NCBI GenBank assembly: GCA_019057595.1 | Contig: DXJI01000041.1 | Coordinates: 1-14,969 of the forward strand | DNA from: Candidatus Thorarchaeota archaeon | GTDB lineage: Archaea; Asgardarchaeota; Thorarchaeia; Thorarchaeales; Thorarchaeaceae | Reading direction: 5' to 3' | Length of the DNA: 14,969 nt | Shown here: positions 7,436 through 12,063 of the stretch, piece by piece | Layout of the letters: each line of letters starts with the position of its first letter | Position numbering within the stretch: position 1 is the first letter of the stretch | Notes under the pieces: model-generated | Database searches by the model: none | Seen by the model: the letters and a program-made list of their open reading frames with translations, nothing else | What the model was told of the DNA's origin: nothing | Made by a program: the position numbers and the translations under genes

Positions 7436-8257
7436 TTGGACCTGACTGTGGAAAAACTTGCCAAAATGATTGATCATACAGTCCTCAAACCAGAGACCAC
7501 TAAGGCGAAGATCAAACAACTCTGTGATGAGGCAATCACCTATGATTTTGTTGCCATCTGTATTAATTCGACTCACGTTGAATATGCTGCCGAGCTGCTA
7601 AAGGACACTTCTGTTCAGGTGTGTATCGTTGTTGGATTCCCACTTGGTGCATCACTCTCAACTGTGAAAGCTTTCGAAACTGCAGAGGCTGTGAAGAAGG
7701 GGGCTCATGAGATCGACATGGTCATGAATGTCGGGGCTCTACGAGATGAGAACTTTGACTTTGTACAAAAGGACATTGAAGCCGTAGTGGCCGCTTCAGG
7801 AGATGCTCATGTAAAGGTCATTCTCGAAACAGGTCTCTTAATAGATGATCAAAAGCGGAAGGCGTGTATGATCTGCAAGGAGGCTGGAGCTGACTTTGTA
7901 AAAACATCCACGGGGTTTGGACCAATGGGAGCAACACCACATGATGTTCGTTTGATGCGTGAAACCGTTGGACCCAAAATGGGGGTCAAGGCGGCAGGTG
8001 GTATCCGTTCATTCAAAGATGCGATTCGTGTAATTGATGCAGGTGCTGACCGTCTTGGAACAAGTGCAGGCGTCGCAATAGTTGAGGACTTTCGATGGGT
8101 GCAGTACAGCGACTCCTGGATGGAACCAGACAAACCATGCTGGACCTGCCCGAGTCGAATGGCTAACATCGCCAAACAACCGAAAGAGGTCTATAAATGG
8201 TATAAACAGAGATGTCTGACTTGCCCGGACAAGGAGCACAACATCTTCACTGAATAG
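7436..8257 (+). CDS. deoC: Deoxyribose-phosphate aldolase with a C-terminal four-cysteine extension
   Basis: A class I aldolase that splits 2-deoxy-D-ribose-5-phosphate into glyceraldehyde-3-phosphate and acetaldehyde in deoxynucleoside breakdown. The barrel is complete: DHTVLKPETT near 13-22, D94 in EIDMVMN, the Schiff-base lysine K156 in FVKTSTGFG and the second lysine K185 in VKAAGGI. LGTSAG (208-212) is the phosphate-binding end. Most DeoC proteins end about here, at 215-230 residues. This one runs to 273 and adds C235-W-T-C238-P and C260-L-T-C263-P, two nearly identical C-x-T-C-P units 21 residues apart. They could bind zinc or an Fe-S cluster; this is inference. The start is TTG 7436 with GGAGG 8 nt upstream. 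The stop codon overlaps the SD of the next gene, the AOR-family oxidoreductase, so the two are almost surely translated from one message. Confidence 0.95.
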   Translation: MDLTVEKLAKMIDHTVLKPETTKAKIKQLCDEAITYDFVAICINSTHVEYAAELLKDTSVQVCIVVGFPLGASLSTVKAFETAEAVKKGAHEIDMVMNVGALRDENFDFVQKDIEAVVAASGDAHVKVILETGLLIDDQKRKACMICKEAGADFVKTSTGFGPMGATPHDVRLMRETVGPKMGVKAAGGIRSFKDAIRVIDAGADRLGTSAGVAIVEDFRWVQYSDSWMEPDKPCWTCPSRMANIAKQPKEVYKWYKQRCLTCPDKEHNIFTE

Positions 8258-8268: not shown

Positions 8269-10050
8269 TTGTCAAAGTCTTCACTCTATGCTGATGCCGA
8301 GATTCTTCATGTTTCATTGACTGATGGGACCTTCAGAAAGGAATCCATACCCACAGATATCTACGAGAAATACATTGGAGGTCGTGGTCTTGGTGTCAAG
8401 CTCCTGTATGATAGTCTTGCTCCTGGGACTGATCCTCTCTCACCAGACAACCTGCTTGTGTTCGCTGTCGGGCCATCTACTGCGACCAGTGTACCAACAG
8501 CTGGAAGATTTGTTGTGGTGACAAAGTCTCCTCAAACCGGTACAATATTCGATTCTCATGCTGGAGGATACTTTGGTCCACAGTTGCGACGTGCAGGACT
8601 CGCCGCAGTCGTCTTTCATGGAAAGTCCCCCTCTCCAGTGTACCTCTGGATCAATGATGATGAGATTGAGATCCGAGATGCGTCAAAATACTGGGGGAAG
8701 GACACAACTGTAACAAATGATGGTCTCATAGAGGACACGGATCCAAAGGCTCAGGTCGCCTGTATCGGTCCTGCTGGAGAGAATCAGGGACTCATGGCAG
8801 CCATAATGACCGACAAGCATCGGGCAGCAGGCCGTGGAGGTGTCGGAGCTGTAATGGGTTCAAAGAACCTCAAAGCGATTGTGGCAAGAGGCACTGGTGA
8901 TGTAGGCGTTCATGACACTGAGGCGCTAAAGATTGCTGTGGAGAGAGCCCGCAGACTCATCAAAAAGAACGGTGTGACGAACAAGTCACTACCAGTCTAT
9001 GGGACACCAGTACTAGTCAATGTTGCAAACGAGCTCGGAATGCTTCCAACTTTCAATTTTCAAGAAGGTACATTCAATGACGCAGAGGGAGTTTCTGGTG
9101 AGAAACTTCTCGAACGATTCTCAGCAGGTACTTACAGCTGTCATGGATGCCCCATTGGTTGTGGTCGTGTAAGCCTGATTAAAGGAGAGAAGGTGGGTGG
9201 TCCTGAATACGAATCAATATGGTCTCTAGGTCCACAATGTGGAATTAACGACTTAGAATGGATTGCCATAGCTAATGACAAGTGCAATCTGTTAGGAATT
9301 GATACAATCTCAGTAGGAAGTACAATTGGGGCTGCAATGGAACTTGTGCAGACAGGCAAGCTAGATGCCCCCCTGAATTTTGGTGATACAACTGGAGTGC
9401 TTGAAATCATTGATGACATAGCTCATGTTCGTGGTCTTGGTGCTGAGATAGCTGAGGGTTCAAAGAGGCTTGCTGAGCGTTATGGTGCTCCAGAACTGGC
9501 GATGCAGGTGAAGGGGCTTGAGATTCCAGCGTACGATCCACGTGGAGCTCAAGGTCACGCATTAGGTTACGCAACATCAAATCGAGGTGGATGTCATCTT
9601 AGGTCATATCTGATAGGCCCAGAAGTGCTAGGGTCTCCAGTACTCATTGATCGAGATAGTCCCAAGGGAAAGGCAGACCTTGTCATGCTCTTCCAAGACC
9701 TTTCTGCAGCAATGGACTCAATGGTTGTCTGTCGGTTCACTAATTTTGCTTGGACAGTTGACGACTATGCAGATATGCTAGCGGCAGGAACAGGGTTAAA
9801 GATCAAAGGTCGTGATATACTCCTCATTGGAGAACGTATCTACAACTTAGAGCGTTTGTTCAACCTACGAGAAGGATTCACAGCAAAAGATGATACACTA
9901 CCTCCGAGGTTCTTTGAACCCCTGCCAGAGGGCGGGTCGAGGAAACGTACAGTCCAACTTGATATAATGTTACCCGAGTACTATTCACTTCGTGGCTGGG
10001 ATAAGAAAGGTGAGCCAACAAAAACCACTCTGAAGAAATTGGCCCTATGA
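8269..10050 (+). CDS. Aldehyde:ferredoxin oxidoreductase family enzyme (tungstopterin, [4Fe-4S])
   Basis: An enzyme of the tungsten AOR family, which oxidises aldehydes to acids and passes two electrons to ferredoxin; 593 residues, close to the 600-620 usual in the family. The N-terminal domain (YIGGRGLGVKLLYD, DSHAGGYFGPQLRRAG, GRGGVGAVMGSKNLKAI) contributes to tungstopterin binding. Cluster ligands are C291, C294 and C298 (CHGCPIGC), with a distant C488 in DSMVVCRF, matching the CxxCxxxC...C pattern. The pterin motif is DPRG (423-426), followed by YATSNRGGCHLR. EYESIWSLG near 313-321 is the conserved segment around the active-site glutamate. Motifs do not tell AOR from GAPOR, FOR or WOR-type members. 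The start is TTG 8269 with the SD AGGAGGT 6 nt upstream. Its place directly after deoC suggests that acetaldehyde or glyceraldehyde-3-phosphate is the substrate; this is inference. Confidence 0.94.
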   Translation: MSKSSLYADAEILHVSLTDGTFRKESIPTDIYEKYIGGRGLGVKLLYDSLAPGTDPLSPDNLLVFAVGPSTATSVPTAGRFVVVTKSPQTGTIFDSHAGGYFGPQLRRAGLAAVVFHGKSPSPVYLWINDDEIEIRDASKYWGKDTTVTNDGLIEDTDPKAQVACIGPAGENQGLMAAIMTDKHRAAGRGGVGAVMGSKNLKAIVARGTGDVGVHDTEALKIAVERARRLIKKNGVTNKSLPVYGTPVLVNVANELGMLPTFNFQEGTFNDAEGVSGEKLLERFSAGTYSCHGCPIGCGRVSLIKGEKVGGPEYESIWSLGPQCGINDLEWIAIANDKCNLLGIDTISVGSTIGAAMELVQTGKLDAPLNFGDTTGVLEIIDDIAHVRGLGAEIAEGSKRLAERYGAPELAMQVKGLEIPAYDPRGAQGHALGYATSNRGGCHLRSYLIGPEVLGSPVLIDRDSPKGKADLVMLFQDLSAAMDSMVVCRFTNFAWTVDDYADMLAAGTGLKIKGRDILLIGERIYNLERLFNLREGFTAKDDTLPPRFFEPLPEGGSRKRTVQLDIMLPEYYSLRGWDKKGEPTKTTLKKLAL

Positions 10051-10107
10051 CAACAGGGAAATAGCTAGTACAGTTGGCCAGACCAGAACTTCCGGAGATG
10101 TACACAG

Positions 10108-12063
10108 CTGGCCAGAAGAAAACGTAGACGTGGGAAATTTCGAAGAGGCCATGCTCCGTATCTCGCTAAGATACGATTCTTCTGGTGCGACACATGCAAT
10201 GTTCCAAGACTGGCTGATACAGAGTGCAATGTCTGCGGAACTGGACCTAGAAAGGTGGAATTGTCCCCGCCTGGCGATGCATTTCCTGCCATGGAGGGAC
10301 ATCTAGAGAGAGCAATCAATGCTCTTGATGCCCAATTTGGAGAAGGTGTAGGAAAGGACCTTCTTCCATCAGACAAAGCGGTCGTGATGAACAAGGTTTC
10401 ATCCCTCGATGCCATGTATGAAATCATCGTGGATGGTATTGTGGTGGGCCGTCTCAGATTTGATATTCCCAAGAGCGGGTACACGTTCATTCTCTCTCTT
10501 GAGGGGGCACGAAGAATAGGTTCCATAAGTCGACAAAAGTGGGTGACCCTACATGATGGGGTTTTAAAATACCTGAAAGATGGCGCCAATCTCATGGTTC
10601 CTGGTGTTCAGGGTTGCGACTCAGGTATCGAGGTAGATGATGAGGTTTGGATTGCCAACCCCGATGGTCAAGTTGTAGCTGCTGGAATATCTCGTATGAC
10701 TGGGTCTGAGATGACTAAGGAACCGAAAGGTTTTGCAGTCAAGATACGCTCCGTTGCTGACCCAATACCGCCCTCAGAGAATAGCAAGATAGCTACGTGG
10801 GAAGATGCTGTGCAAGCCAATGCTGCAGATCTTGACAAGATTGAAGCAGAAGCCATGTCCTTTGTTAATCGTACAATTGCTAGACAGGATGATCTTCCTG
10901 TAGTTGTAGCTTTCAGTGGTGGAAAGGATTCTTTGGCCACCTATCTAGTCGTTGAGAAAGCAATCAATGAGAGTCCACCAATCTTCTTCATGGATACTGG
11001 GATTGAACTCCCTGAAACCATTGAACACATTGAGAATTTTGCTAGGTCTCGCAAGATCAAGGTCATTGGACAGAAAGCCGGTGATCGATTCTGGGAATCC
11101 GTTGATACATTTGGTCCCCCAGCACGAGATTTCAGGTGGTGCTGCAAGGTCCTAAAACTCGGTCCTGCAGCCACATCAATTGCTGATGAGATGGGTGGAG
11201 AGAATCTGAGCTTCATGGGCCAGAGAAAATTGGAATCTTTCCAGCGATCAATAGAACCAAGAGTGACAGAAAATCCATGGGTTCCAGGGCAGACATCTGC
11301 AAATCCGATACAGAATTGGAACGCCTTGGAGGTCTGGCTCTACATCTTTCACAAGAAAGAGGACTTCAACCCACTATACACTCGAGGATATCATAGAATG
11401 GGATGCTATCTGTGTCCCTCATCACCCTTGGCTGAACTTGAAGGTCTGCAAGAAACTCATCCAGACCTCTATAGACAGTGGGAGTCAAAACTACATGAAT
11501 GGGCTGAAAAGTATGGTTTTCCTGATGATTGGGTCACTAAGGGCTTCTGGAGATGGAAAAATCTACCTGGAGGTCAGATGGAGTTAGTGAACAAACTGGG
11601 TCTGAACATTGAGCCTAGTAGAACGAGCCCAAGTCAGACATTGAACCTATCAGTAACAAAGGGAGTTTCACCTTGCGTCAAATCAGGCTTCAGTCTAGAA
11701 GGAGCTTTCTCATCAGGTATCGACCTGAACAGAGTATCAAAGATATTCCCCATATTCGGTAAGACTCGCCTATCAGAAGAACTCGGAGCGTTGCGAACAA
11801 CATCTGGTGAGAATAGTATCGCGCTATTTAGCTCAGGATCAGTGGTCGTTAGGGGTGAGGATGAAAGGTCCGTAGAGAGACTCACAAATCAAATGGAACG
11901 AGCTCTCAAACGAGCCCTCTTCTGCCAAGCATGTGGTTCCTGTGTACCACAATGTGAACATGGAGCATTGAATCTTGACGAAGGCAAGATTTCAGTCGAT
12001 GAAGAGAAGTGTACCAACTGTCTCAAGTGCGACAAATGGCCTTGCCCTACATACCTCACTTAG
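10108..12063 (+). CDS. Zinc ribbon / PUA / PP-loop (PAPS reductase-like) / 2x[4Fe-4S] ferredoxin protein; start uncertain
   Basis: A multidomain archaeal protein, 651 residues if it starts at CTG 10108. Numbers count from there. A zinc ribbon (C27, C30, C40, C43; FFWCDTCN and CNVCG) comes first. A PUA-like domain follows near 140-200 (RQKWVTLHDGVLKYLKDG). Next is the PP-loop ATPase with SGGKDS (270-275), then CC at 345-346 and CxxC at 433-436, the spacing of the APS-reductase [4Fe-4S] site, with GQRKLESFQRS between. No ECG(I/L)H catalytic tail motif is seen. Two ferredoxin motifs end it (C606, C609, C612, C616 and C635, C638, C641, C646). Annotated relatives are called PAPS reductase-like, but PUA implies RNA binding, so RNA thiolation is an alternative. 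The zinc ribbon has no ATG, GTG or TTG in frame; the first GTG (10255) would delete it. CTG 10108 has GGAG (10094-10097) 10 nt upstream. It begins 57 nt after the AOR stop and is probably in that operon. Confidence 0.88.
   Translation: MARRKRRRGKFRRGHAPYLAKIRFFWCDTCNVPRLADTECNVCGTGPRKVELSPPGDAFPAMEGHLERAINALDAQFGEGVGKDLLPSDKAVVMNKVSSLDAMYEIIVDGIVVGRLRFDIPKSGYTFILSLEGARRIGSISRQKWVTLHDGVLKYLKDGANLMVPGVQGCDSGIEVDDEVWIANPDGQVVAAGISRMTGSEMTKEPKGFAVKIRSVADPIPPSENSKIATWEDAVQANAADLDKIEAEAMSFVNRTIARQDDLPVVVAFSGGKDSLATYLVVEKAINESPPIFFMDTGIELPETIEHIENFARSRKIKVIGQKAGDRFWESVDTFGPPARDFRWCCKVLKLGPAATSIADEMGGENLSFMGQRKLESFQRSIEPRVTENPWVPGQTSANPIQNWNALEVWLYIFHKKEDFNPLYTRGYHRMGCYLCPSSPLAELEGLQETHPDLYRQWESKLHEWAEKYGFPDDWVTKGFWRWKNLPGGQMELVNKLGLNIEPSRTSPSQTLNLSVTKGVSPCVKSGFSLEGAFSSGIDLNRVSKIFPIFGKTRLSEELGALRTTSGENSIALFSSGSVVVRGEDERSVERLTNQMERALKRALFCQACGSCVPQCEHGALNLDEGKISVDEEKCTNCLKCDKWPCPTYLT

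Follow-up and report, generated by a model that had tools for sequence, protein, structure and literature searches.

Where does translation of a gene begin when its reading frame encodes a zinc ribbon and offers no ordinary start codon ahead of it? This question is raised by a PP-loop/PUA/ferredoxin gene in a 14,969-nt stretch of DNA from Thorarchaeota, which are archaea that share kinship with the ancestors of complex cells; the whole stretch is referred to here as the window. A sequence-only reading of the window had claimed that the frame of this gene encodes a zinc ribbon with no ATG, GTG or TTG before GTG 10255, and its coordinates check out in the sequence. It had also placed a GGAG 10 nt before CTG 10108, pointed to TTG 10074-10076 as opening another frame that runs to TAG 10125-10127, and reported the same bases, TGGCCAGA, at both 10075-10082 and 10109-10116, all of which are correct. 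The comparison of this gene across its class, described below, indicates that CTG 10108 is very probably its start codon.

The gene and its protein

The window is Thorarchaeotal, the best protein among the matches listed being P0002 from Candidatus Thorarchaeota with 94% identity, and a scan of species genomes with the gene returned 11 loci, all of them in Thorarchaeota. The features of the locus are collected in Table 1. The protein scores 628.3 bits against NCBIfam model NF010368 (PRK13795; cut-off 588), aligning with positions 6-625 of the 635 in the profile, and is by this score a member of the family. The match starts at the Tyr of APYLAKIRFFWC (profile position 6), which indicates that the zinc ribbon is part of the PRK13795 family. 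The NF010368 model carries the name "hypothetical protein", a PDB sequence search with the protein gave matches to PUA and PAPS-reductase only, and an Rfam search of the window gave no match. The PUA and PP-loop domains, together with a sub-threshold match to the C2 domain of tRNA-guanine transglycosylase in P0003, suggest RNA sulfur transfer as the role of this enzyme, which we offer as a guess. CTG 10108 lies 57 nt beyond the stop codon of the upstream aldehyde ferredoxin oxidoreductase gene; the ORF at 7436-8257 of the window, for which TTG is listed as the first start, presumably resembles deoxyribose-phosphate aldolase.

Table 1. Features of the PP-loop locus, in window coordinates.
Feature	Coordinates	Strand	Remarks
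Aldehyde ferredoxin oxidoreductase, upstream neighbour	8269..10050	+	PF02730, PF01314; TTG listed as first start
In-frame stop TAG bounding the open frame upstream of CTG	10066..10068	+	Frame open from 10069
Out-of-frame TTG reading	10074..10127	+	Not conserved; judged not functional
Putative Shine-Dalgarno element GGAG (10094-10097), possibly extended as GGAGATGTA	10094..10102	+	Complementary to 16S tail GGATCACCTCCT of class genomes
CTG, very probable initiation codon of the PP-loop/PUA/ferredoxin gene	10108..10110	+	Class comparison, 46 sequences
PRK13795-type CDS (zinc ribbon, PUA, PAPS-reductase-like PP-loop, 4Fe-4S ferredoxin)	10108..12063	+	Predicted 651 aa + stop
Zinc ribbon CDTC...CNVC	10186..10236	+	Absent from the product if the start is GTG 10255
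PUA domain	10540..10755	+	PF01472, 59.9 bits
PAPS-reductase-like PP-loop domain	10900..11421	+	PF01507, 136.1 bits
4Fe-4S ferredoxin-like segment	11923..12033	+	PF12838, 21.3 bits, under the cut-off of 27

Conservation of the CTG codon

The class to which the genome of locus L001 belongs comprises 47 genomes, and the gene has a match in all 47. Its 5' end could be read in 45 of them, the matches in G025 and G044 beginning inside the gene, so that with the window 46 distinct sequences were available; their 5' ends were aligned on a conserved motif preceding the ribbon. The codon aligned to CTG 10108 is CTG in 43 of the 46 sequences and TTG in the other three (L044, L046 and L057). All 31 rows with a constant spacing to the anchor motif have CTG, while in the other 15 the distance was set by hand and a CTG or TTG following the Shine-Dalgarno (SD) element was chosen, which favours these two codons in those rows. 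In the protein tree, as read from its listing, L057 (TTG) is the sister of L056 (CTG), and L044 and L046 (both TTG) form a separate pair; that an ordinary start codon is aligned to CTG 10108 at two separate points of the tree marks this position as a start. The use of leucine codons points the same way. Among the 27 columns of the alignment that are at least 90% Leu, the start column is 93% one codon, and the other 26 reach at most 57%, with a median of 33%, so that selection seems to act here on the codon and not on leucine. The CTG has been retained even though TTG, an ordinary start, is a single C-to-T change away, and its conservation at this position is more than chance. The zinc ribbon, CxxC...CxxC, is present in all 46 class sequences.

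In 27 of the 46 sequences, including the window, there is no ATG, GTG or TTG between the last in-frame stop and the start codon (24 with CTG, 3 with TTG); stops thus leave no upstream canonical start in 24 of the 43 CTG sequences. The in-frame stop lies 1-3 codons upstream of the start in 16 sequences and directly before it in seven, the stop-start pairs being TAG-CTG in L005, L030 and L032, TAA-CTG in L022, TGA-CTG in L059 and TAG-TTG in L044 and L046. Among these 27, 22 are also free of canonical codons between the start and the ribbon; the remaining five have either a TTG 18-19 codons downstream (L005, L007, L022 and L055) or, in L040, an ATG downstream of the CTG at an offset of +3 codons.

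An SD element precedes the start in nearly every case. When scored with a set of six SD-type 4-mers, 41 of the 46 sequences have one at 9-10 nt before the start and 45 have one at 6-12 nt, with none in L046; GGAG itself occurs in 30, and in the window 10 nt separate GGAG 10094-10097 from CTG 10108. For comparison, 169 of the 182 starts from the genome survey described below (91 pairs, four of which contain CTG) have an SD 4-mer 5-10 nt away, which makes the 9-10 nt spacing of the PP-loop gene long for a start in this survey; this, like the lack of a 4-mer in L046, counts against the CTG reading. Within sequence that is clearly 16S, the tail GGATCACCTCCT was found in L204 and L205; its pattern occurs in four of the six genomes searched, the match in G034 (L206) being outside a 16S context.

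Beyond the class, 20 sequences chosen among the listed relatives of the same phylum were read by eye at their 5' ends, and all 20 have the ribbon and an ATG, GTG or TTG in frame before it. The PP-loop gene of the class differs from the PRK13795 family in its start codon only, and the canonical starts of the relatives probably place the origin of the CUG start on the class stem or in an early part of the class.

N-termini of homologues and public annotation

A protein search gave 1635 matches, and the N-termini of the 120 listed ones were examined. Among these 120, 59 begin downstream of the first CxxC of the ribbon (WCxxC), six (P0002, P0008 and four others) begin four residues before the W of WCxxC, the distance of Ile codon 10171, and four begin seven residues before it. 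A further 27 of the 120 have their N-terminus where the codon three ahead of CTG would place it, and 11 at the distance of CTG itself (12 at W-25 minus P0041, which has an apparent start at an upstream ATG together with an apparent deletion). Of the remaining 13, 12 have still other starting distances and P0077 is a partial record. The sequence-only reading had proposed that homologue N-termini would distinguish a CTG start from a frameshift. P0003 and P0004 start with M-A-R-R-K and P0005-P0007 with M-A-R-G-K, which favours CTG, and the N-terminus expected from the frameshift, M-A-R-P-E-L, occurs in none of the 120 matches listed. P0026, the one protein whose start was matched to DNA, begins at the CTG distance, and its N-terminus agrees with L005, where the DNA reads TAG-CTG-CCC-AGA; a CUG start is therefore already in at least one public annotation.

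Gene finders often clip the N-terminus of the PP-loop protein, and 59 of the 120 listed public versions are without the first half of the zinc ribbon or more. According to an excerpt of its description, Prodigal, a gene caller in wide use, does not consider CTG as a start (PMC2848648), and this can explain N-terminal truncations in the listed proteins. Among the open-access papers that our searches listed, none deals with both Thorarchaeota and CUG, and none with the start of this PP-loop gene.

Competing explanations

The evidence against CTG as the sole start comes from the 19 of the 46 class sequences that have an ATG or TTG in frame upstream, from which it could be argued that a codon 2-6 codons upstream is the true or a second start in these lineages and that CTG is an internal Leu there. 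The 27 listed proteins that begin three codons before CTG agree with this, and an in-frame ATG in sister genomes, which the sequence-only reading had named as an observation that would refute its proposal, does occur in part of the class, in 12 of the 46 (2-5 codons away in 11 and 13 codons away in L051). In L004, L006, L008 and L011 this ATG is the one within GGAGATG, which in the window is out of frame with the PP-loop gene, and in L033-L035 and L037-L039, of which L033-L035, L037 and L039 belong to one subclade, it lies two codons upstream of CTG and 3 nt from an SD 4-mer. The spacing of these codons speaks against them, however, as the upstream in-frame starts that were scored, all within six codons, either lack an SD 4-mer or have one only 0-3 nt away, and in sister lineages an upstream start is ruled out by stops. 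A Leu codon inside the gene would also be free to drift, yet CTG is kept even where an ATG or TTG lies upstream. We regard a dual or lineage-specific start as unlikely, though it deserves some weight. Much less probable is a start downstream, at GTG 10255 or Ile codon 10171, that would leave the ribbon partly or wholly untranslated. The listed proteins that begin downstream of WCxxC or four residues before its W would fit such a start, but the ribbon is conserved in all 46 class sequences and in the 20 outgroup sequences read, and on this ground we rejected both codons; the omission of CTG by Prodigal, as excerpted (PMC2848648), can account for the truncated N-termini.

The sequence-only reading had left two explanations standing, and of these the CTG start is supported by the in-frame CTG of 43 of the 46 sequences, while the frameshift or indel is not. 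A programmed or accidental frameshift would start at TTG 10074 (or ATG 10098) and cross to the main frame around 10109-10116. There is indeed an open frame from TTG 10074 to 10125, some start codon occupies the place of this TTG in nine of the 46 class sequences, and a scan for out-of-frame ATG, GTG or TTG codons within 45 nt upstream, with a frame open past the start, found one in 26 of the 46. The other 20 have no such codon, however, and in the 26 the frames begin at varying places and have ends that range from 14 to 193 nt beyond the start; these scattered codons could be explained by chance and an AT-rich leader. Among the 46 sequences there is no shared shift site, TGGCCAGA is doubled only in the window and L001, and the main frame arrives at a conserved CTG with its SD element without any shift. 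The class-wide comparison leads us to reject the frameshift as a general reading, and we consider it very improbable indeed. The comparison also contradicts the idea that an assembly or sequencing error deleted a normal start. The window is a single assembled contig, which would allow such an error, but 23 further class genomes with CTG likewise have no upstream canonical start in frame, and the probability of this explanation is close to nil.

A proposed mechanism and its precedents

The comparison establishes the position and frame of the CUG, the spacing of its SD element and its constancy across the class. As a whole, the following explanation of these observations appears highly probable to us. 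The GGAG 10 nt upstream would position the small ribosomal subunit with CUG in the P site, the initiator Met-tRNA would read this codon with a first-position mismatch, helped by the SD element, and the product would be a 651-aa protein beginning M-A-R-R-K with a complete zinc ribbon. We infer that the first residue is Met and that initiation at CUG is weaker than at AUG. Selection may keep the CUG weak, as a throttle or a regulated start that would provide low or regulated output of an enzyme presumed to act in RNA sulfur transfer.

The standard example of control through a rare start codon is infC of Escherichia coli, which encodes IF3 and has an AUU start with autocontrol. The PP-loop gene resembles it in having a near-cognate start where AUG is the default; infC is, however, bacterial and autocontrolled and uses AUU, whereas the PP-loop gene is archaeal and uses CUG.

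Among archaea, the nearest precedent found in the sources as excerpted is leuA2 (HVO_1510) of Haloferax volcanii, a gene whose N-terminal region is conserved and which lacks a consistent ATG, GTG or TTG (PMC8305020). In the excerpted account, peptides were found upstream of Met-93, and either an in-frame CTG or an out-of-frame ATG with slippage was proposed, the choice being left undecided (PMC8305020). The two genes are unrelated, and the PP-loop gene differs from leuA2, so far as that account goes, in having stops, and a codon constancy across a class, that favour CTG. CUG is hardly counted as a prokaryotic start, a chloroplast study giving, in excerpt, 20 ORFs (0.024%; 69 genomes) for bacteria (PMC9845219), yet it looks fixed across an archaeal class. 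The PP-loop gene may therefore offer a clean test case both for how an archaeal, eukaryote-like initiation machinery deals with a near-cognate codon and for selection for weak regulatory starts.

Search for further CTG starts

A survey for other CTG starts compared 1.2 Mb each of genomes G004 and G006, giving 371 reciprocal best pairs, 281 after removal of overlapping shadow frames and 257 at 45% identity or more. An SD-supported canonical start is aligned in both genomes in 91 of the 257 pairs, with the same codon in 61 and different codons in 30. TTG changes readily: among 29 aligned, SD-supported TTG starts of G004, 16 have TTG in G006. An identical SD-supported CTG in both genomes was found in two of the 257 pairs, which is at background level (CTA 3, GAG 4), and both pairs, one of which is the gene for the general transcription factor B (TFB), have an in-frame ATG 2-3 codons upstream in G004 and G006. 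A first, noisier scan likewise showed no excess of CTG, which stood opposite a canonical codon seven times, against eight for GTC and seven for GTT. In seven of the 281 pairs the alignment covers at least six residues ahead of the first canonical start of either genome, and inspection of these seven by eye found no second conserved CTG without a canonical start; one of them is the TGA-containing protein described below. The survey excludes the PP-loop pair, the G004 copy lying outside the surveyed part, and we judge that it would have missed this pair in any case, as G006 has GGGG and an in-frame TTG upstream; further CTG-start genes may thus exist.

One gene, called thioredoxin-like here for a CxxC motif, shows only sporadic CTG: this codon is present in G006, but ATG stands in 18 of the 19 loci, out of 30, that could be read by motif. 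Another sporadic CUG start is possible at L174:7816-8439 (-), where, of the gene and its G006 orthologue (pair A_-_171561 / B_-_981679), one has ATG and the other CTG aligned after a similar GAGGG leader.

The TFB gene, identified with NF001658 (396 bits, cut-off 384), may be a second conserved CUG start. Its start region was read in 42 of the 47 class genomes and is GGAG-ATG-ATT-GGA-CTG-GCC-AGC with few changes. CTG is present in all 42 (41 by script, and L278 by eye on the other strand) with GGAG 9 nt upstream. In 41 of the 42 an in-frame ATG lies three codons upstream of CTG, at zero spacing to GGAG; in L290 this codon is AGG, and there a GTG immediately follows the CTG. None of the 42 genomes read has a stop codon that would prove this start. 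It is conceivable, and we advance it tentatively as a rather unlikely idea, that a small set of Thorarchaeotal genes, comprising the PP-loop enzyme and TFB, the latter with a nearly invariant leader GGAGATGAT-N4-CTG, has kept CUG since the class arose for its dependence on initiation stringency (for example, on the level of aIF1). If this were true, these archaea, kin to eukaryote ancestors, would possess a translational switch.

The TFB genes, which lie outside the window (L172 near 12084 (+), L251-L290), also have a nearly invariant leader, GGAGATGATTGGA, before CTGGCCAGC. This leader is little changed even at wobble bases, suggesting that it may be regulatory.

A TGA-containing protein family

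A separate observation concerns a locus outside the window, L134:14790-15590 (+) (G004:C1:634790-635590), which encodes a protein of 267 aa whose frame contains a single TGA, set within a CxxU-like motif (DCIS-TGA-GRG). The protein has no Pfam match, and there is no Rfam match in eight of its loci. Its relatives are L210-L220, with matches in 42 of the 47 class genomes, and the TGA could be located in 11 of 12 loci. An excerpted account of selenoprotein families names seven in Asgard archaea (PMC11227280). The TGA-containing protein represents a candidate selenoprotein family. TGA stands at the site in 40 of 43 rows (one also with TAA), and two of the other three stop short of it. A tRNA-Sec above the cut-off is found in 36 of the 47 class genomes, as well as in five of 14 control genomes; G027 is not among the 36, and its copy of the protein has Cys (TGT) at the TGA site.
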